Below, piece by piece: positions 2,523 through 55,000 of a stretch of 64,000 nt of DNA (its first letter is position 1; each line of letters begins with the position of its first letter). The translations under genes were made by a program, and so were the position numbers. The notes beneath the pieces are model-generated. The model worked only from the letters and a program-made list of their open reading frames with translations. It had not been told where the DNA came from and ran no database searches. The stretch comes from Isoetes taiwanensis (lineage: Eukaryota > Streptophyta > Lycopodiopsida > Isoetales > Isoetaceae): positions 16,051,059 through 16,115,058 of the forward strand of contig JAJEKV010000004.1 in assembly GCA_021234155.1 (NCBI GenBank), read 5' to 3'.

Positions 2523-4090
2523 AAGTAAGAGGTGTTTTTTCCATTAATTAATTAAAGCCATACAATAGTCTGACTAATGGGAAAAAATTCCACATTAGCA
2601 ACCACCAAACTTAAATAACTTTAGAAGAAAAAATAGTAGTATGTATCTTCAAGTTTATAACAACTTAGCACCAGCTACACCAAGATTCTGTTGCAAATTG
2701 ACTGGATAAACTGCCTTGCCCTCTTTAAGAAAGCAGAAATTGCAAACTCCTGATGTGAGAATAAGTCCAAAAACCTGCATGAACAAAATGCCAAGCAAAA
2801 TGCTAGAGCATGAAGTTAAACAAAAAGAAGATAAGGTATTGAGCATTAGCAGATGACCGTGAAACAGGATTTGGAGGCAAAGGAGAAGGAGATAATCTGA
2901 AATTTGGGAATGGTGTTTTGGCAAAAGGTGGCTCATTGTTGCATTATCTGATCGAAAATGGAATTGTAGACCCAATAGAAGCCCTTATCTGTACCAAATT
3001 TGTAGCTGTTAAATTCTGATCCATTCTCCATAAGCAAGGAATGTATGTCCTCTTTTCCCATCAAGAGAAGCAGTGTACCATATAAGTCAGCCAACATCTT
3101 GTGAGAATAGTATAATTGCTAAGCTGGCTATCTGTCAAAGAGTAGTGGTACATGAACAAGAAATTGAATATGCAGTACATCTGTACGACCTCTCTGCAAT
3201 ATATCCTGACCCAAGATTTTTCATTACTGTTAAGCCTGACCTGGTAAAGTTTGACTTCATCCACTGTTGAATTTGGCCCTGGAGGCTTCAGATCTGTGAC
3301 ATCTGTATTGTTGTTGTACAAGATAACTTCATGGTAGCTTAACATTGTATCAAATTTGTTGCTGCCCTAAAAAGGGGCATTAGAATTGATAACTTGGAGG
3401 TTAGAAACAAAGATATTGAAACCACCTATAAATTTACCAATTGCATCCCATTTCCTGTCATAAGAATCTGCAACTTTACTTTTGTGAGCAGTACCATAAG
3501 CTTCTAAATCCAATTGAAAATTCATCTTAATCCAAAATATGGAAAAGTTTTTATGACCATGCACAATCCTATTCCTTACTTTCCAAATATTCCAAAGAGC
3601 AGTGAACATAATTGTGTTTATGAAAGCATCATTATTTTGAATGCATTTTAACAAGTTAAACTGGTTATGCACACAGAAATAATGGCCAAATTTGCTGTAA
3701 AACCAATTCCAAATTTCAAGAAGCTTGAAACACTGGAAAATATGCTGCAGTGTTTCATCATCAGAGCAGTTAGAATGACATGCAGTCCTAATGGCCGAAT
3801 TTCTCTTAGACAAGGAAACAAGGTTTGGGAGGCTTTTTTTAGCAATCAACCAAACAAAATAATTTACCTTTGGAGGGCAATATGAGTTCCAAATGTTTTT
3901 GAACAGACTATGGCATTCATCTTCTGTGATTGACCACTTTGTCCTGGCTTTAACATGACCTGTCTTGTGATTCAGCCTGGCATAGACTTTACTAACTTTA
4001 TACTTATTAATCCCATTTATTTTCCAAATTAGACCATTACCACTCTCAGCCAGATTAAGGTTATCAGTAAGGATATTTCTGAAATGAAAG
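2480..4090 (-). mobile_element. LINE 3' end inserted into the copia element
   Basis: A run of T at about 2489-2521 is the poly(A) tail of a minus-strand retroposon. An open frame at 3367-3849 (minus) resembles the C-terminal zf-RVT region of plant L1-like LINEs: a cysteine/histidine motif around DETLQHIFQC followed by ALWNIWKVRNRIVHG. Copia coding breaks off just before 2480 and resumes at about 4095 (HQMNVYNVFLES...). The piece is therefore a 5'-truncated LINE copy that landed inside the older copia element. The exact 5' end and target duplication were not resolved. Confidence 0.7.
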
Positions 4091-5330
4091 TAGATTGATC
4101 ATCCCATCAAATGAACGTTTACAATGTCTTTCTTGAAAGCAATCTTCATAAAGAGATGTATCTAGAACAACCTCAAGGCTTCATCTCATCTGATCCACCA
4201 ATAGGTCTGTCATCTCCATGAAGCTCTATATGGTCTTGACAATCTTCTCAATCATTGTACACTTTCCTTGACTCAGTCTTGGTTTTTCATGCAGTACTCC
4301 AAATCCCAGTGTACACTTCCGTCATGATCCCACTTTTTTCTCATCCTATGCTATGTTGACGACTTACTGATTGTGGCAGCCTCTCGCTTTGAGCTTCAAG
4401 TCACCAAGAGTCAGCTTCAAAACCATTTTATGAAAGACCTTGACCCTGGGGGGTTCACCTTTCTGGTGGTGGTATACGTCATCTGCATTCCTAAAGTTGG
4501 ACAAACCCTCCCTTATAAGGATTCCTAATAAAAAAAACCCCCCACTTATATGATTTTAAATTTTCTCAAAATTTATACCCCTATCTTAGATTTACCCCCT
4601 AAGTTTTTCTTAATCATGCTAAACTTATAGCACTTATAGTCAAAAACTTTATGTTGTCATATACCTCTTCCTTAATAATTACAAATTTAACACTCATAAA
4701 ACTTATATAGAGCCTTACATATATGTACAACAATCGATAGTAAAACCACCCCTCCCCACCACTCACATGTTTTATAAGGTTCAATGATGTGGACCCCCGT
4801 TGACCTTGGCTCCATCCACTATTTTCTCAGCATGAAAATATGCTACAACTAGGCATCGGGTTTCTATACCTTCATCGGACCAAGTACTTATCTGATTTGC
4901 TTGCGAAATTTCACCTGTAAGACTACAATCCCACCATCTCTTGCACAATGATCCAGACACTTCTCATTCACTTCAGCATATCCACAACAGATTTTAGTCA
5001 TGCTTAACTTCGCTGCCATTTCAACTAGACCTGATCTTTCTATCCCATTTTGCAAACTTAGCCAATGTTCCACTTCACTTAAAAATGCTTTGTGGCTCTC
5101 TCAAATGTGTACTTCCCTATATCATTGGCACCATCTCTCTTGCCCTGCACTACTCCTCTGTTACTACTACTCCTCTTCATGGTTGTTCTGACGCTGACGC
5201 TGATTGAGCAGGTACTTCTTAAGATCCATTTCAAGATATGTCTTCCTTCTTGCCAGCTCTGCCATAAGCTGGAGCAGCTCCAAACAACGTTGTGTTGCCC
5301 CTTTTAGTACGGAAGTTGAATACGTAGCTC

Positions 5331-5640
5331 TTGCTCATGCCTCTAAGAAAAGTTGTTTGGCTTCATCGTCGCTGCTCAGAATTGCACATTTCCCATTCTT
5401 CTGCCCTCATCCATGTTGACAATCAAGATGCTGCTGCTATTGCTCATAATCCCATCCTTCATTGTCAAGTCAAGCACATAGACATTCAATACCATTTTAT
5501 CCGAATTTTTATCTATGATCAGACCATCCGTCTTGAATATTGTCCCACAAATAATGTGACTGCAGACATCTTCACCAAGCCTCTCCATCGCCTCAAGTAT
5601 AGGAGCTTTATTCAACATCTTGACATGCAAATATTCAGTA
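5331..5640 (+). pseudogene. copia RNase H fragment
   Basis: The longest intact stretch of the copia polyprotein is the RNase H end that would degrade the RNA strand of the DNA/RNA hybrid. It shows VDNQDAAAIAHNP, KHIDIQYHFIR and LEYCPTNNVTADIFTKPL, the usual order in copia elements. Its natural continuation IFS-GGSG resumes after the insert at 6131. Confidence 0.8.
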
Positions 5641-6141
5641 GGGATTATCTTCATGGCAGGAGATCTCCATGGTGAAGCTAAAAAACTCTTTCAATCTGGA
5701 AGTTGCTTTGATGGCATTATCACATCATAGAAAAAAAGGTACAAAGTACAACACATGACTTGACAGACTAGGGACTTTGGTAGGTTTCTATTCCTTCTTT
5801 AGGTGCCATTAGGTTGATAATGACATTGTGGAAGGGGAAGGTGCCACTGGCAACGGTGCAGGTATTATTGATAATCCGGAGTAAGAATTGCTTGTAGATC
5901 CTGCATTGGAATGGAGTTGGCTCTCTCTGTAGTACCTACTCTCTGATAAAGAAAGGAGATTTTCCTTATAGTATCCTAACTGTGGGGAAGACGAGAAGAT
6001 GGCCTCTGTAGTACATGTGCTTTACATCTGCATTCACCCTGTAGAGGGTTCCTATTGTATATATTTTCTATTCTTTAAATACATACATATAATCTTACCT
6101 CAAAAAAAAAAAAAGAAAAAAAGAAAAAAAAAATATTCAGT
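5629..6141 (+). mobile_element. A-tailed retroposon insert with 11-bp target duplication
   Basis: The sequence aaatattcagt at 5629-5639 recurs at 6131-6141. The 491 bases between end in an A-rich tail of about 35 bases (about 6096-6130). This is the signature of target-primed insertion by LINE machinery. No ORF is recognisable, so it is either a 5'-truncated LINE or a SINE-like copy. It splits the 3' end of the copia element. Confidence 0.8.
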
Positions 6142-6759: not shown

Positions 6760-6822
6760 GATTATGTAGCCGAAATTTGAAATGGTATTTTTATAACCTA
6801 AGGTTTTCAGTGGTTAGTATGG
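6760..6822 (+). repeat. Left 63-bp direct repeat of the HUH element
   Basis: Begins gattatgtagccgaaattt and differs from the right copy at three positions (one a/g near the start and two near gttttcag). Sequence similarity stops abruptly on both sides, and a small hairpin CGTAT-gaga-ATACG (6825-6838) follows immediately. Confidence 0.85.
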
Positions 6823-7122
6823 GTCGTATGAGAATACGGTAGGAAATGACGGTGGCACTATGGATTCGAAATATGGGAATCTAGGGCTAGCATCTGTGTC
6901 TGGGTTGGTCGAACTGGGAGTTCTCACGTGGTCTGGAGATGGGCATGGCGGAAATGGCGATGGCGGCGCCGGGTATGTGCCTTGGTTCTGCCATTGTTTC
7001 TGTTTTGGGCCACAGAATAAGGAGGGGTCATCTTGGTTGTTCGGAAGGCCATCTCTAGTTTTGTGTCAGTGGATTTCTGTCACAGGTAAGCTGGGTTTGC
7101 TGCTTTTATTTTGTTTGTGATG

Positions 7123-8156
7123 TCTTTGAAGAGAGCAGCGAGGAATGGGAAGGGTGTTGCTTGGTCTGTGCCTCCTTCTCTGAGTTCTTTAAAAATTGGC
7201 TCCTCTAATTCTGGAGAGCCTCAGACTGGGGGACATGCTGCTGGTTGTTCTCTTGGTCAGGATTGGAGTGCCATAGATGTCAGTGTCACCTTGGGTTTGT
7301 CTGGGCAAGATGTGCCCACGAGTTTTTATGATGCCCTTGTTGGCTTTTGCAATCAAAGGTGTTTGGCTGGAGTTGTGGCCATGGAGCGTGGTGCAAGTGT
7401 TGATCACTTGTACTGCCAAGCTGTTTTTAGAGCTCGGTTCAAGAGTCCCAGGGCCATGAATGATGCTATATAACAGGACTTCAATTGGGTTTCAAAGCCA
7501 CCGGGTGTGATTTTGGTATGCAAAGCCCTTAAAAACACTCGCCTTCATTGTTTTGAAGGCATGATTGAGTACTGTATGAAGGATGTTGGAAAAGTCCATT
7601 ATGTTTGTCATCTCCATAATGTGAGTGAAGCTGCTATTGAGAAAGGAAAAGATCTCTATTTGAGATGGGGAGCTGGTGATACGAAGGATCTTGTTGTGCT
7701 TGACAATATTACCTCTTGAATCGAGCTGCACATTTTGTGAATTACCATGGGAATCGTAGGTTGACTATTAGTCTATTGTATACCTTGGCTAGGATGATTC
7801 GATCTGGAAAATGTACCTTGTCTAGTTCCTGGATCATCCCTTCAAACACTGCTCATATCAATGAGCATCGTGTTCGGGCTGCCTGGAGAGTGCTGCTAAA
7901 CCCTAGTCACTGCATGTCGTCCGACATGAGGACGATTCTATTTGGTTTGCCAACAGGCTTTGTGCCTGTGGAGAGGAATGGGCCTAGACGCAGGCGTTAT
8001 TGGGATGATGCTATTTCTGCTGATGAGGAAGACAATAATTTTGAGGATATACATGATGCTTCTTATAGTGCAGATAGCCCTGATGTCGTGATACTTGAGC
8101 CTGGCTTAGATTATATCCCTGTGCATAAGGGTGATCGTACCATGGCTGTTGGCTGA
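7123..8156 (+). pseudogene. Rep-like single-tyrosine HUH endonuclease, two inactivating lesions
   Basis: Conceptual product of about 340 residues that would nick DNA and start rolling-circle type transposition. The metal-binding HUH-type motif is seen as HLYCQAVF (histidine codon 7405-7407; the second His is Tyr, with Gln as in some Rep proteins). The catalytic-tyrosine motif is YCMKD (Tyr codon 7570-7572), like motif III (YxxK) of CRESS Reps. Other well-preserved stretches are CHLHNVSE (about 7600-7625), LYLRWGAGDTKD, SSSWIIPSN and RAAWRVLLNP. The frame has a TAA at 7471-7473 and a shift near 7700-7716, after which it continues in the frame of 7716-8156 into an acidic tail. No helicase domain was seen. 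The start is uncertain; an upstream in-frame ATG at 7111 is possible. Confidence 0.6.
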
Positions 8157-8234
8157 TGAACTTGCTTGGATGTTGGTTGTACAGTTGAGATTTTTTGTTT
8201 TCATGCTTTTGTTTGTTGTATAGCTGCAGGAGTC

Positions 8235-8645
8235 ATGGGGACTGATCCGGAACCAGTTGTTGGCGTGGGCGAGCCTATTGTGTCCTTGCCTGAATCTTTT
8301 ATTTCATCTGCCATAGATGCATCCCATTCCGACCCTGTTGTGTATTCAGCTGAACCAGAGGCAGCATTCTCTGCTCAGGAGTTTATTAATAACGTTATTC
8401 AGGTTGGGACTGAGGCGCATAGGATTGCAGCATCACTGCGTTTGCTTAGGCAGCAGCTTATGGCATTCTACATATCCATTGACAGTGCTATATCTGTTGC
8501 GGAGTGGGAGCACTTGGCTGTGCCTGTTTCTGAATTACACATATTGCGTTCTCATATGAGCCTTGCAAGGGCATTACTTGTGCAGGAGATACATCAGTTA
8601 GATGCGGTGATAAGGCATGCCCAAAGTGGCTCGACTATGAACTAG
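8235..8645 (+). CDS. Second ORF of the HUH element, unknown function
   Basis: An intact frame of 136 codons downstream of the endonuclease, counted from the ATG at 8235 (the frame is open from 8166). The product is acidic and Ala/Ser/Val-rich at its N-terminus. Its second half is leucine-rich and probably helical (about residues 50-130). I recognise no domain. It lies inside the direct repeats on the same strand as the endonuclease, so it may be an accessory protein or may be the detached C-terminal part of a once longer protein. Confidence 0.4.
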   Translation: MGTDPEPVVGVGEPIVSLPESFISSAIDASHSDPVVYSAEPEAAFSAQEFINNVIQVGTEAHRIAASLRLLRQQLMAFYISIDSAISVAEWEHLAVPVSELHILRSHMSLARALLVQEIHQLDAVIRHAQSGSTMN

Positions 8646-8971
8646 TTTATGTTTATGTTTGTGTTTTGTTAGTTTGTTATTTGTATATGAAGTTCATGGA
8701 GGTTGATCTGGAGTTGTGTTATAGTGCTTGCAGGAGCACCTTGGTGTTAGGGAGCTCAACTTCGTTTACCTGGTTGAGTGTCCTTCAACATTGTAAAGTC
8801 TGTTTTGAGTTAATAGACAGTTGTGGTTATGCTGGTTGTGGAAAACGCTTTGTTAATGATTATGAGTAAACTGAAATTGGTTAGGGACCATTATGAGGTC
8901 ACTTTTTATTGATGTTTCATTACGTAAACAAGACTAACTTGTTTGATGCGTTAGTGGGCTTCGGCCCCTGG

Positions 8972-9008
8972 GCATAGCACGCATCCCACAATGGGATGCA
9001 TGCTATGC
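8972..9008 (+). other. Strong hairpin near the 3' end of the HUH element
   Basis: GCATAGCACGCATCCC (8972-8987) pairs with GGGATGCATGCTATGC (8993-9008) at 15 of 16 positions around a five-base loop. Terminal or subterminal hairpins are typical of rolling-circle transposons, where they mark the 3' end. Confidence 0.8.
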
Positions 9009-9011
9009 TTG

Positions 9012-9057
9012 GATGAGCATGGGAATTTATACTGGGGTTCGATTCCCCAGGCTCATT
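9012..9057 (+). other. tRNA acceptor/T-arm-like minihelix with B box
   Basis: CTGGGG-TTCGATT-CCCCAG (9032-9050) is a T-arm with the canonical seven-base loop and contains a B box. It abuts GCTCAT (9051-9056), which pairs with ATGAGC (9013-9018). The two stems would stack like the acceptor and T arms of a tRNA, with 13 bases replacing the rest. It follows directly after the hairpin at 8972-9008. A tRNA-derived fragment or SINE relic is an alternative. Confidence 0.5.
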
Positions 9058-9111
9058 GTAATTTATGTGGTGGCTGTTGCTTGAATTGTGTGACCCAAAT
9101 TATTCTTATGG

Positions 9112-9174
9112 GATTATGTGGCCGAAATTTGAAATGGTATTTTTATAACCTAAGGTTTCCAATGGTTAGTATGG
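9112..9174 (+). repeat. Right 63-bp direct repeat of the HUH element
   Basis: The second copy of the terminal direct repeat, about 55 bases beyond the minihelix. It is followed by an imperfect inverted repeat GGGGT...ATTTGACCCC (about 9180-9214). Confidence 0.85.
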
Positions 9175-10935
9175 CTCTAAGGGGTAAGTCAAATACAATG
9201 GATTTGACCCCATCTTGACTTAAATTCAAGGGCTGAAATTTGATGAGGTGGAATATGTTGTGCAATATGCTTGCATCCAATGGCCCAAAAAAACTTTGAA
9301 ACACCCCAAATGATAATACAAAGGGGTTGTGTAGCAGAGCATCTAGGTGGCACCTCTAGCAAACTGGAGCATGTGAGGTGTGGCCAAAAGGGGTGGCCAC
9401 ATGCATTCTTTGCTGCCTCCACCTCTGTATCTCAATTTGATACAAGAGGGATAACAGAGAGGTGAAGAGCCACATAATCAAGGGGGAAGAGCTTCAGAAG
9501 AGAGGGGGTTCAACAGATTGAACTAGTTTTTGTGGATGCTCCCCTCTGCCAGAGTGGAAGGTTGAAAACTGGCCTCCAACTTCAAGATGGAGGACTCCAC
9601 CTCTGTTTTTGCATCAAATCTGCCATTGACGGCAAAAAGATGATTATGTGGCCGCCCCTAAAGACGCCTATTGCCAGCACCCTCGTTATCAGGGCATCGC
9701 CACCATGGGGCCACCAAGGTGGATGTGGCCATCGTCAGAGGCTACATCGAGCAAACTTGCATGGCATCTATTGGTCCAGCGTGGTGCCGGTCATCCTAGC
9801 AAACTTGCATAGCGTCTATTGGTCCAGCTTGGTGCCGGTCATCCTGCTGACATTGCACACCATTTTCGCCTGGTCATCCATGGCCCGCACTGATGTGGCA
9901 GATCCCCATTTATCAGCCATGACGTCGTTAGGAAGAAGGCCAGGCTCGGCGAAGGCCCGTCCTACGCGGGCAAAGGCACGTTGGATGTGTAGAAATCATT
10001 GTCATGCATACATATCATATGTATCTCGAAACTGAACAACTCTTAAGGAGGTTATTTGGAGTTTGATGGTTATTATTTTGATGCCAATTGCTTGAAATTG
10101 TTGGTTTTGGTTTGATCCATCAACATTTGGACTTGGCTAGTTGCCTTGAGGATTGAATGAAGAATCCTGCTGATTCTGAGCTCTGCTGTTCCCAGCTTCA
10201 ATCCATATGTTGCCAGATTATACCTGCTAAATATTATAATTTTGTCAGACTATCATCTAATTTAAATTTGGTAGCATGTTGCTGATATGCCCGGTAACCC
10301 GACTTTTCATCCCATGATTGGAGCATAACAAGGAGATGCGAGTTAGAGCATATCCTTTTGTCTAGAGTTTGTAAAATTCATTCCAAGCTATTCACTCGTT
10401 TTTCCACTTCAAGTCGCACAGCATGAGCTGCTGCATTGTTTATTCAAGCGTTTCTCTGTTTCTCTAGTGAGGGAGTAATCAGGTTTGCATATCACGGATC
10501 AACTTCCCACCAGACATTTCATGGGTTTAAGCTCCGCCAGCAAATGTGAAGCAATTACGTGCTTAGAAAAACTTATCCTTAGGAAAATGAAGACGAGTCT
10601 TCAGATAGAAACCAACCTCTTCAAGCTTGTAAGCCCCATTACTTTCATTCATCTAGGCAATGAATGTTGTCAAGAACCACCTGCTTCAAGCTTGTAAGCT
10701 CCATTACTTTCATTCATCTAGTGCAATGAATATTGTCAATGGCAAACCACCTGTTGCACTATAAACAGAAATAATAATATTGACCACAACACTTTGAATG
10801 GATTTTACTACAATGAGATAAAGATTACACAGAAAGGCAACGTGCTGTTTGCCCTTATTATTTTACTGCATATGATACACTTGCGTTTTTTCCCTTTGGT
10901 ATTTATATAAGGCCGAAGAATATACATAGAAGGAA
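9175..10935. other. Intergenic with two small tandem duplications
   Basis: No recognisable gene. The 48-bp unit at 9751-9798 is repeated at 9799-9846 with four mismatches, inside an open frame (9532-10035) that I do not regard as real. A 65-bp unit starting cttcaagcttgtaagc at 10619 is repeated from 10684 to 10753. The right end would be the 3' flank of the minus-strand gene that follows. Confidence 0.6.
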
Positions 10936-37900: not shown

Positions 37901-39004
37901 ACACAAACGTGCGAGGAAGTTCATCTTACTTGAGACAGTAATCTTTTCTTTTTGGCTGCTCTTAATCCAGCAGGGGAGGATAAATCTGAATCGAGTGAAT
38001 TATCCCTGGAAAGGCAAACATTGCTCGGATTTTTAGAAGGTGACATGTTGCGGATCTTTCTCTTAAAAATTTTCCTCTGCTCTTGAGCTGGCTCAATTGT
38101 CCCAGACTGACCATTGCGGACAAAAGGTACAATAGCACCACCATTTGATATGTTTGTCAGTGCAGCAGGTCTGTCAAGAGACAACCGCCATTTAGATAAG
38201 TACTTCTCCTTTGATTTGAGAAGTTCTAACCTCTGATTTTCTACCCTTGATATGTCTTCCTTAAGGGATAGCAAGTCTCCTTGTATCTGCAACATGATAA
38301 GAGAAGTCATGTCAATCATAATTTCAAATGAACCCAATACTAATTTATCTAAACATACCTCATTTAATTCTTCCAGTTTCTGGCGTCTCAATCTGCATAG
38401 AAACTCTAGCAGAACTTCAGTGTTAACTTCTGCTTCTTCTTGTTCCATTTTCCGTTTCTTCTGTGCTAGAATTATAAGAAGAGAATCGATCTCTTTTGGT
38501 GACATTTCTGCACCCTGCATGCATTCAGTAAACAAGCATTTATATGCAATGAAACAAGAACAAGCAGGCATAAAATACACAGCAACATACCTGTTGAAGA
38601 ACTAGGCGGAGCTGTTCTGTTGGCGAAGTGGCATTTGTCATTTGACATGTTGATAGCTTTTTTAATATCTACATATCAAAGAATCATCAGTCAGCATGAA
38701 CATAAGCAGGTCTTTCTGCAATTGAATGATCTACCTTATTAAGAGCTATATTCGGATACAATTGACTCGTTGTAAGATAAACTCCACAACAAGGACAATT
38801 CTTTCTGTTGTTCAAATGTGTGGTAATGCAAAGATAACAGAAACTGTGCCCACAGGATGTCAAGAATGTATCTTTCAGCGGCTGGATGCAAATTGGACAT
38901 AGAAAATCCTTATCAGCGTCCAGACGTACGGGATCTTTTTCACGAGTTTCAGTTTCTATGCGTCTGTCTGGAGTTTGGTTCCTTTCTGGGCATACAACGT
39001 CCAT
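34970..39004 (-). CDS. COP1 E3 ubiquitin ligase, complete, 13 exons
   Basis: Exons: 38735-39004, 38591-38668, 38359-38514, 37930-38286, 37226-37410, 37083-37148, 36900-36978, 36601-36756, 36434-36532, 35735-35839, 35474-35653, 35207-35317, 34970-35137; all GT-AG and in frame, giving 669 residues (Arabidopsis COP1 has 675). COP1 works with SPA proteins and CUL4-DDB1 to ubiquitinate light-response factors such as HY5 in the nucleus in darkness. Seen: C3HC4 RING with C36, C39, C51, H53, C56, C59, C70, C73; coiled coil about 120-205; basic nuclear-localisation clusters KRK (243-245) and KKKR (280-283); seven-bladed WD40 from about residue 365, with [77 protein letters not shown] and a final TIKVLVLAP. 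No lesion is visible. N-terminus and the NLS linker are the divergent parts. Confidence 0.97.
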
Positions 39005-52039: not shown

Positions 52040-55000
52040 CTGCAGCAGACAATTCCCAAAATAGAGTTAAAAATGCAAAAGTTGAGGTCAAAAACTATTG
52101 GCGCCAGAAATGGTCTAGGTGTAAGGTTTGGCTCTGCCTCCGCTTCTGCTTGTCCGAAGTCTGCCCCCGCAACTCAGTCTGCTCCCGCTGCTGGTCCATC
52201 CATGACACACACTACACAAGCATCTCCGACCGCCCAGGTGGTGGTCTGGAACTGTCGGGGTTTCCCGTGGCAGAAGGGCGATAGCCTCAATTCAGTAGCT
52301 GTGGACATGGACCTCATCTTCCTCATGGAGACATGGGAACACCAGGGCCCACAGTCGCCTCGATCTGCCGGGATACCAAAGCATTTTTGGTGTTCAATGG
52401 TTTATGCGAGGGAGACATGGGCATGATGGGGTTGCCTGCTACTACCGGGTAGCCTTGGCACATTTGATTTCCCTCCAGAAGACCGACAGACATAACCGCT
52501 ACTTGTGGGTCCGAGTGCACCACCCTGATGGCGATCCTCTCTTCCTAGCTGCTTGCTACTTTCCCGCAGAGAGTCCCTTCTATCACGACCACACGGAAGT
52601 GGGCGGGATGGACCCGTATGTCGATCTATATGATGACATACGGAACACAAGCGGATGGGCGAGTCATGCTCCTTGGAGACTTCAATGCGGCGGGCGAGGG
52701 GTGGAACGAGCCATGCGGGTGGACCCCTCGCGGATGGCGTCTTTGCGATTGCGTCCCGCGGCGGCTTACTTTTGCGGCACTCGGATGCCGGTCAGTCACG
52801 CTTTGGCGGAACAATTGCTCCCCGATGTGCGGTATCTTTTGACTGCTCATATGCAATGGCCTACCACAATGGCCCTCTTCCACGGTACATTTGCGGATAG
52901 GACAATCACGGGCGGAACTAGTGTCGTGGATTATGTCATAGTGATTTGCGCGGGATATACACCTTGTCGGCCATTTTCCGCGTCGGCATGGGCCGGTCGG
53001 GGACGAGGAGGCCATTTCGGATCACCTCCCACTCTATGTGAAGGCGGCCTGGCCGACCCCGGGCGGCCCGCGATAGCGGCCTGCTGCCGAGCCTCGGTTG
53101 CGCTTGGATTATGAGCACGCGGAGGGTTCTGCTGACATGCTCGCGAAGCCCTCGACAGTTACGCATGCCCACGGCTGGAGGCGGCAAACCAACCAGGTGG
53201 TTGAGCTCCTCGAGCGAGGCGGGACGAGGTGCTTTGGGAGACCTCCCCATGCCGAGATCGAGGCCGCAAACCTTTCCGCGTAACGGATGGTTTGATCTTT
53301 GAGTGTAAGGAATAAGCGGCGCTTTTCAGATCTCATCGTGGATCGTGGAACGCTGAGCTCGAGGCCACCGCCATTACTGCGCCTTCCTCAAAGGAAACAA
53401 AGGCAAAGATGCCGGGCAAGGCACCGAGGAGAAATGTTGGCCTACTAGGCGCCCACGAGAACTTTCGGCGCGGGGTACTCTGCCCGGAGCCCGGCATAGC
53501 CTCTGGGGAACATCCGCTTGGCGGTGCAATGGGGGCGATACACTGCGCTGACTTTATGATCCCGGGAAACCGCGGACGGATGTGCCCCCACAACATGGCC
53601 CACGGCCCGGTGATCCGCGAAGAAGATGTCGAAGAGGGGCTGCGGCGCTGGCTAATGGGAAGGCGGCAGACTTTGGCGGCAAAGCGGAGTTGCTCAAGTG
53701 GGCAGCCCATGGTGCCGAATCCCTTTGCTGCTTGTTCAGCAGCATGGCGCAAGAAGGGTTTTCCCGGTCATGGACCTAGCGGGGTTGTTCCGATCTACAA
53801 AGGCGAGGGGACCCACATTGTCCAACCAATTACCGAACCATCATGGTGGCTTAGTGTTACCCAAAGGCGGGCGCAGCATTCGCCCGGCGGCGGGGTAACC
53901 CGATGGGCGGCGATGGAAGTCGGGGCAATTACCCAGGCGGAGCTTCCGACCGGGACATTCGACCATTGATCACATCTTCACACTCGGGGCCACAGTGGGG
54001 ACAACGAGAACCGTGGGGAGGACACATCTTCTTGCTTTTGTGGACTTTGCAAAAGCTTTCGACACAGTGCCCTGGGCAAAGTTGTGGGCGAGATTGCACC
54101 ATCTGGGGCTCCCTATGGATCCAGCAGCATTGGAGTTAGGCAAGGTTGTCCTCTCTCACCCACACTCTTTGGACTTTACATTGACCAGTTGGAAGCCTGG
54201 CTTGCTATCAATGGGGGGGACGGTATACAGCTCTTGCACCAGGTCATCCGGCAGCTCATCTATGCGGATGATGTGGACCTCTTGGCCCATACACCAGAGG
54301 GCATGCAGGCACACCTAGATGCCCTGGACACATTCTGCCAGGCGACGAACATGCGTGTCAACCTGGCCAAGACTAAGGTGGTCCTCATATCCTCCTCACG
54401 TCATCCAGCACCTCCGGCGCTCACTCATCAGGGGTATATGGTAGAGGTCACACCCAGCTACAAGTACCTAGGGGTGGAATTTCCGTCCTCCATGTATTGG
54501 GATGCATCCATTAAGCCTTGGGTGACCCGAGGTTGAAAGGTATTTGACGCAATGCAAAATATAGTCGCAGGTGGTTGTATCCTTTGGGGCCACCGGTCAC
54601 ATTTGTTCAGGAACCTTTGGTGGAGCCAGTTCTTCTGTATGGGGTCGAGGTGTGGGGCCCAGTGGTATCTTTGGCGACTTGGAACAACTTAGAACAGTCC
54701 GAAGGCATTTTTTGGCGGGCGGTTGGGGTCAAGCCCTCGGTTCCATATCAGATCTTGTTGCAAGAGACAGGATTTATGCCCCTGCAGCATGCGGCCCTCG
54801 ATAGACACATTGTTTATTTCGAAGGTGGGCGGCATGGGGCGACACTCGGCTCCCGCTTGGCTTCTGTTGTGGCGATGAGCGTAACGACTTCGAGGGCTTG
54901 TTGGAAGGACAAAGAGAGCCCGGTGGGCTGGCTTATTTGGAGCGTGAAGCTGCCACATAAGGTGCGTCGGTGCCTGACGCAGCCGGCGGGATAAATTTGA

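Follow-up and report, generated by a model that had tools for sequence, protein, structure and literature searches.

Replitrons are recently described jumping genes that are thought to move as single-stranded DNA, and they were reportedly presented by Craig in PNAS in 2023. Helitrons encode an HUH-type protein with two catalytic tyrosines and a fused helicase and carry a hairpin near the 3′ end, and the Reps of CRESS-DNA viruses join an HUH motif and a YxxK-like motif with one tyrosine to a fused superfamily 3 helicase. To our knowledge, how Replitrons move has not been worked out. According to the text of PMC10741241 available to us, Replitrons have been reported in lycophytes, have a size of 0.9-4 kb, carry short direct terminal repeats of 5-11 bp and produce a target-site duplication of 2-8 bp. 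In the available part of PMC13231165, HUH chemistry is common to Replitrons and Helitrons, and the general scheme of the single-tyrosine enzymes consists of a nick, a covalent 5′ link through the tyrosine, strand transfer and rejoining.

Since lycophyte Replitrons are already in print (PMC10741241, in its available part), neither the class nor the host group described here is new, and finding them in the nuclear DNA of a plant is in itself unsurprising. The window, i.e., the whole 64,000-nucleotide stretch of Isoetes taiwanensis DNA analyzed here, very probably contains a dead member of a Replitron family, in which a single-tyrosine HUH gene (ORF1) with a putative Replitron C-terminal domain is followed by ORF2, a small gene whose product is predicted to be helical. 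Like the Replitrons of the texts at hand, this element has a Replitron_HUH domain, a single tyrosine, a length of ~2.56 kb and a lycophyte host, and no helicase was found in it; in addition, it has a 66-bp subterminal copy of its 5′ end, a constrained ORF2 and covarying hairpins. Neither hairpins nor a second ORF are mentioned for Replitrons in the available portions of PMC10741241 and PMC13231165, nor in the papers listed by a further literature search for such an ORF.

The HUH endonuclease gene and its lesions

The features of the first gene are the following:

7120-8156 (+): ORF1, the HUH endonuclease gene, broken; its relatives read through in one frame
7282-7659 (+): Replitron_HUH domain (PF21859; Pfam E 1.5e-18, 67.8 bits, cut-off 28.5)
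7405-7419 (+): HUH motif HLYCQ, degenerate in the window copy (relatives HLH; alignment A2)
7570-7572 (+): candidate catalytic tyrosine of YCMKD, invariant in 14 of 14 rows of A2
7785-7928 (+): weak Replitron_C match (PF21860), below cut-off (Pfam E 0.22, 12.4 bits, cut-off 27)

The original prediction had placed a gene with two lesions at 7123-8156. The gene is real, its start is at 7120, and both lesions were found in the window copy, namely the TAA stop at 7471-7473 and a shift of the reading frame somewhere between 7701 and 7713; the number of lesions is at least three, however, because the second histidine of the HUH motif has also been lost. The motif was thus correctly located at 7405-7419, but it is not intact, since HLH was read in all the 13 other rows of A2 (14 ORF1 rows picked for open frames, with L026 left out because of a stop) and HLY in the window copy. 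At the first base of this second-histidine codon, 22 of 25 family rows carry the majority base. The tyrosine motif reads YC(M/I)KD across A2, with one conserved tyrosine, in agreement with the single tyrosine that had been proposed.

The first part of ORF1 was scanned against Pfam with X in place of the stop, and the strong Replitron_HUH match listed above bears out the Replitron-like class that had been suggested. When the three reading pieces of the window copy were scanned up to E 10, nothing besides the two Replitron domains was detected. Replitron_HUH was matched in 14 of 14 rows of A2, and Replitron_C at E≤1 in 6 of 7 C-terminal rows (best 0.0012). In the three long proteins (L067, L022 and L065) Replitron_C always follows the HUH domain, in this order, and each time scores below the 27-bit cut-off, as it does in the window copy, a point against the Replitron reading; in two of them, L022 and L065, ORF1 can be read as 341 and 340 aa, respectively. 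An AlphaFold model of ORF1 from a single sequence was unusable (pLDDT 32.6), and the matches to PDB obtained with the single ORF1 sequence (best E 0.048) or with alignment profiles (A2, best E 0.15; A3, best E 0.10), as well as a weak Pfam match to Tox-SHH (E 0.026, 4 of 14 rows of A2), were taken as chance.

The dN/dS ratio was calculated on chosen loci (11 for the HUH domain, 5 for the C-terminal part and 10 for ORF2). No ratio was obtained where dS was saturated, and the ratios of pairs whose dS is about 2 or higher are uncertain. For the HUH domain it was 0.13-0.17 between window-type copies and L022/L023, and 0.10-0.11 between L024/L021 and L028. Between families the C-terminal part gave 0.05-0.09, so that the conserved C-terminal part of the original prediction stands, and it is followed by the separate ORF2, which gave 0.09-0.19 against L022 or L026. 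Within families the ratios were mostly higher (0.21-0.54 for HUH and 0.27-0.94 for ORF2), as expected of decaying copies, and one pair, L025-L027, was low (0.03). As judged from these ratios, the HUH domain, the C-terminal part and ORF2 are under purifying selection.

Extent, copies and target sites of the element

The limits of the element were defined by comparison of its copies in the genome (Isoetes taiwanensis assembly, 1,658,258,908 bases in 1110 contigs):

6761-9320 (+): Replitron copy of ~2.56 kb, with a sharp 5′ end and a slightly ragged 3′ end (a few bases)
6761-6825 (+): 5′ terminal sequence (ATTATG...), also present close to the 3′ end as part of a 66-bp direct repeat
9113-9177 (+): subterminal repeat of the 5′ terminal sequence
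9300-9320 (+): 3′ end, a repeat of the (A)CACCCCAAAT type; some copies continue into a second unit

With positions 6761-9320 as the query, the best 40 of 1288 candidates were scored, and 14 of these 40 copies, the window copy included, were full-length (query ≤3 to ≥2541; hand count). The sequence shared among copies runs from 6761 to about 9316-9320. Among the 25 family loci compared over the whole element, 22 start exactly at the position that corresponds to 6761, one starts 2 bases later and two are truncated (hand count). At the other side, 38 family loci were compared (the 25 around the whole element and 13 around the 3′ end only): the end was located ≤8 bases from 9320 in 26 of them, seven stop earlier (hand count), and five (L008, L010, L011, L015 and L019) are without a match to 9175-9320. 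Several copies are extended at the 3′ end by further CCCCAAA(T).

A span of 6760-9174 had been predicted, in which the 66-bp direct repeat (6760-6825 and 9112-9177, 94% identity) was taken for the ends of the element. As the copies run on to about 9320, the repeat at 9112 is subterminal, and its interpretation as termini or long terminal repeats was excluded. In another family, L063, the copy of the 5′ end sits just before the hairpins. Terminal inverted repeats were not found in the element, and no repeat kept at the extreme ends by most of the compared copies was seen by eye; a 10-base stretch that some copies have both in the 5′ part and at the 3′ end was discarded, because most copies do not keep it.

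Some flanks deserve a separate description. In L005, L039 and L040 a near-identical sequence follows CCCCAAAT, and by eye it resembles part of the Replitron 5′ end; it may represent an extended 3′ end, an adjacent element or a duplication, and a BLAST comparison of the L005 3′ flank with the element gave no match. The 3′ flank of L018 is a high-copy repeat, whose copies begin almost exactly at the Replitron junction. In L014, where a second copy is found just upstream, a head-to-tail array as the product of rolling-circle replication was considered, and the case was uninformative because the match breaks off at ~9182 and other DNA precedes the next start.

The Replitron_HUH domain has at least 150 matches in the genome, all above the Pfam cut-off, among the best 150 of 2165 candidates. 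In 141 of the 150 matches listed the matched stretch is without a stop (hand count). Because scoring was confined to the best candidates, the figure of 150 is a minimum and the proportion of open stretches tends to be overestimated. Together with the readable ORF1 of L022 and L065, these open stretches agree, for the group, with the expectation that intact copies exist elsewhere, and the genome-wide search that had been proposed did recover copies at scattered sites that share their start and their end. The gene of the window has at least 42 matches of 85-100% identity, itself included (best 40 of 782 candidates scored). The claim that the window copy must be young was not borne out: it lies 4.3% from the majority of 25 copies (3.3-9.5% for the other 24), and its nearest other full-length copy is 93% identical, among the copies scored. 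In the L063 family, the nearest full-length relative is at 92% and partial ones reach 94%, and there was no sign of very recent bursts in either the window family or the L063 family. At about 1.70-1.83 Mb of contig G000:C1033, at least four full or nearly full family copies lie within about 125 kb, several of them with similar flanks, hence the spread is there due in part to local duplication.

Joined flanks of 14 copies were tried for empty sites, and informative ones were obtained for two, L009 (five places) and L007 (three places). In both of them roughly 30-37 bp of the target were lost, with no duplication, which speaks against the Replitron reading; the 3′ end of L007 is also shortened. 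An apparent 4-base duplication at L009 was contradicted by its own empty sites. For the window copy no empty site was found in the genome. By contrast, when the end of the 5′ flank was compared with the bases near the 3′ end in 16 copies, the number of short matches exceeded that of shuffles in 8 of 8 settings (e.g., 42 vs 29.5), the share of 3000 shuffles that reached the observed value being 0 to 0.0067, and none of the 13 control offsets per setting reached it.

Two other origins of such a gene were weighed with these data. A remnant of a Helitron or Helentron that has lost its helicase part would share with the window element the HUH-type protein, the hairpin near the 3′ end and the lack of detected terminal inverted repeats, and HUH chemistry is common to both groups (PMC13231165, available part). 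The window element family, however, has other termini and one conserved tyrosine in its motif, only Replitron domains were detected in the three pieces scanned up to E 10, in line with the original prediction of no visible helicase, no helicase was matched in L022, L065 or L067 (Pfam up to E 1), and ORF1 of the relatives has its own stop about 65-110 bases before ORF2; hence, we consider this origin highly improbable. The prediction had also kept open a CRESS-type Rep gene, inserted from a virus or plasmid and not part of a transposon, and indeed the HUH motif and the Y-x-x-K pattern of YCMKD, with one tyrosine, resemble the motifs of CRESS Reps. Against it, neither the Pfam nor the PDB sequence searches gave such a match, no helicase was found, and many dispersed copies share their ends. 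Furthermore, a search of viral contigs with short peptide patterns gave 9 pattern matches and no confirmed relative, so that we attach hardly any credence to an inserted Rep gene and retain the assignment to a Replitron family. The same kind of search in bacterial and archaeal genome contigs gave 51 pattern matches, again with no relative confirmed.

The second gene, splice-like sites and 3′ hairpins

Downstream of ORF1, and in the leader, the following features were recognized:

7086-7091 (+): candidate splice-donor-like site CACAG/GTAAGC, upstream of the ORF1 ATG
8228-8229 (+): splice-acceptor-like AG that follows a T-rich tract and lies immediately upstream of ORF2
8235-8645 (+): ORF2, 136 aa, open in the window copy, predicted helical, without known relative
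8956-9055 (+): three hairpins, the third with a tRNA T-arm-like loop (DNA fold and covariation)

ORF2 gave no match in Pfam up to E 10 and only chance-level matches in PDB, and its helical nature was predicted by a single-sequence model (pLDDT 68.5). In the genome, at least 151 matches were reported, with the best 150 of 1706 candidates scored. The L067 clade, which is 43% identical in HUH, carries a different ORF in the ORF2 slot, and this second type has at least 156 matches in the genome from 545 candidates; no homology between the two types was shown (E 0.12). At least 60 of the 150 HUH matches are followed, ≤3 kb downstream and on the same strand, by an ORF2 type (42 by the first and 18 by the second), a lower bound obtained from typed match lists, with 124 rows for the second type. 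The spacing was 0.85-1.21 kb in 56 of these 60, and other placements within 3 kb amounted to 1 and 1.

Of the 28 loci compared, 22 have the donor-like GTAAGC ahead of the ORF1 start codon (hand count), among them L022, L023, L026 and L030 despite their differing leaders, and it is absent in L016, L021, L024, L028, L044 and L045. In other clades (L065, L066, L028, L067 and L068) a donor-like site was not found near ORF1. At the acceptor side, ORF2 is preceded by a T-rich tract and by AG followed by G in 12 of 13 loci compared, L022 being the exception (hand count), and the second ORF2 type has a similar acceptor-like site at its start in all four loci compared. Joining of the donor at 7086 to the acceptor at 8229 would yield the message for ORF2, and the unspliced RNA would serve for ORF1. 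A coding exon upstream of the donor was also considered, given that in 25 copies one frame of this region has 13 stops vs 38 and 58 in the others. The region was treated as non-coding because there is no third-position excess, several copies are open in a second frame too, and it is short in L022-type copies.

The acceptor-like site just before ORF2 would also suit a different arrangement, in which ORF2 is the last exon of ORF1 and both form one longer HUH protein. Three observations argue against such a fusion: the end of ORF1 (..TMAVG, stop) is kept between diverged families, e.g., L022 and L024, the homology of ORF2 in L024, L026 and L029 aligned from the ORF2 ATG, and a shared donor near the end of ORF1 was not seen by eye. 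A fused protein is thus considered unlikely.

The DNA fold of positions 8930-9111 gave a z of -4.51. For the hairpins, 22 of the 40 sources matching the region were aligned, the others being partial (13 sources), incomplete or rearranged (L004, L010, L017 and L036), or L044, which was also left out. In the 22 rows the structure left 95.8% of cells paired, compared with 31.8-48.5% for slid versions. This share is favoured by the use of the window row as the source of the structure, and the kinship of the rows also raises such scores. Two-sided changes were observed in 6 of 30 pairs, a value reached by 3 of 500 shuffles, and in 17 cells, with a shuffled mean of 3.4 and none of 500 shuffles reaching it; the 19 further pair types were less striking (31 of 500 shuffles). 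As read from these compensatory changes in the alignment, the hairpins covary. The loop of the third hairpin fits TTCRAYT, which we take to be the T-loop pattern of tRNA, in 15 of the 20 rows that have sequence at this place (hand count). A tRNA gene in this 3′ part was discarded, since ARAGORN found none in the 64-kb window, and Rfam returned just a T-arm-like piece, that of tmRNA, below the gathering score.

Taken jointly, these features suggest a tentative reading, which we regard as possible and somewhat doubtful, in which the Isoetes Replitrons are a two-gene variant with one leader. The unspliced RNA would give the HUH nuclease, and splicing over the nuclease gene would give the helical partner, whose slot would be filled by two proteins, either unrelated or diverged beyond recognition; the three-hairpin structure, with its tRNA T-arm-like loop, and the second 5′ nick sequence would together constitute the 3′ terminator.

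A possible mode of movement and neighbouring sequences

At the level of sequence, the comparisons described here establish the domain identity, the extent of the element, the constraint on ORF2, the covarying hairpins and the repeat of the 5′ sequence, and from them we infer every step of transposition and the role of ORF2. By analogy, the element would most likely work like other single-tyrosine HUH enzymes. The HUH protein would nick at the sharp 5′ end (ATTATG...) and become joined to the DNA through its tyrosine, and a single strand would then be peeled or copied off as far as the 3′ end. There, the stop might be marked with the help of the hairpins and of the repeated 5′ sequence close by. 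The strand would finally become linked to DNA at a new site, and imprecise stopping would account for the ragged 3′ ends. ORF2 might act as a helper, perhaps for DNA binding or multimer formation. The many open copies, the constrained second gene and the covarying end structure provide direct test pieces for the cut site, the role of the hairpins and the need for ORF2, and some of the unclassified repeat DNA in such plants may consist of Replitrons.

Other open frames were observed in the window. The frame at 5328-5675 (+) contains ADIFTKPL, and presumably it is the end of a copia-type polyprotein. Those at 3367-4098 (-) and 52299-53114 (+), of 243 and 271 aa, respectively, resemble what we take to be parts of LINE-type elements, and the frame at 37921-38601 (-), of 226 aa with a coiled-coil stretch, recalls what we presume to be COP1-like proteins. 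Elsewhere in the genome, L031 and L032 (G000:C1052 and G000:C840) contain two different long rbcL-like open frames, one of them on a small contig, which may represent a plastid insertion or a foreign contig.
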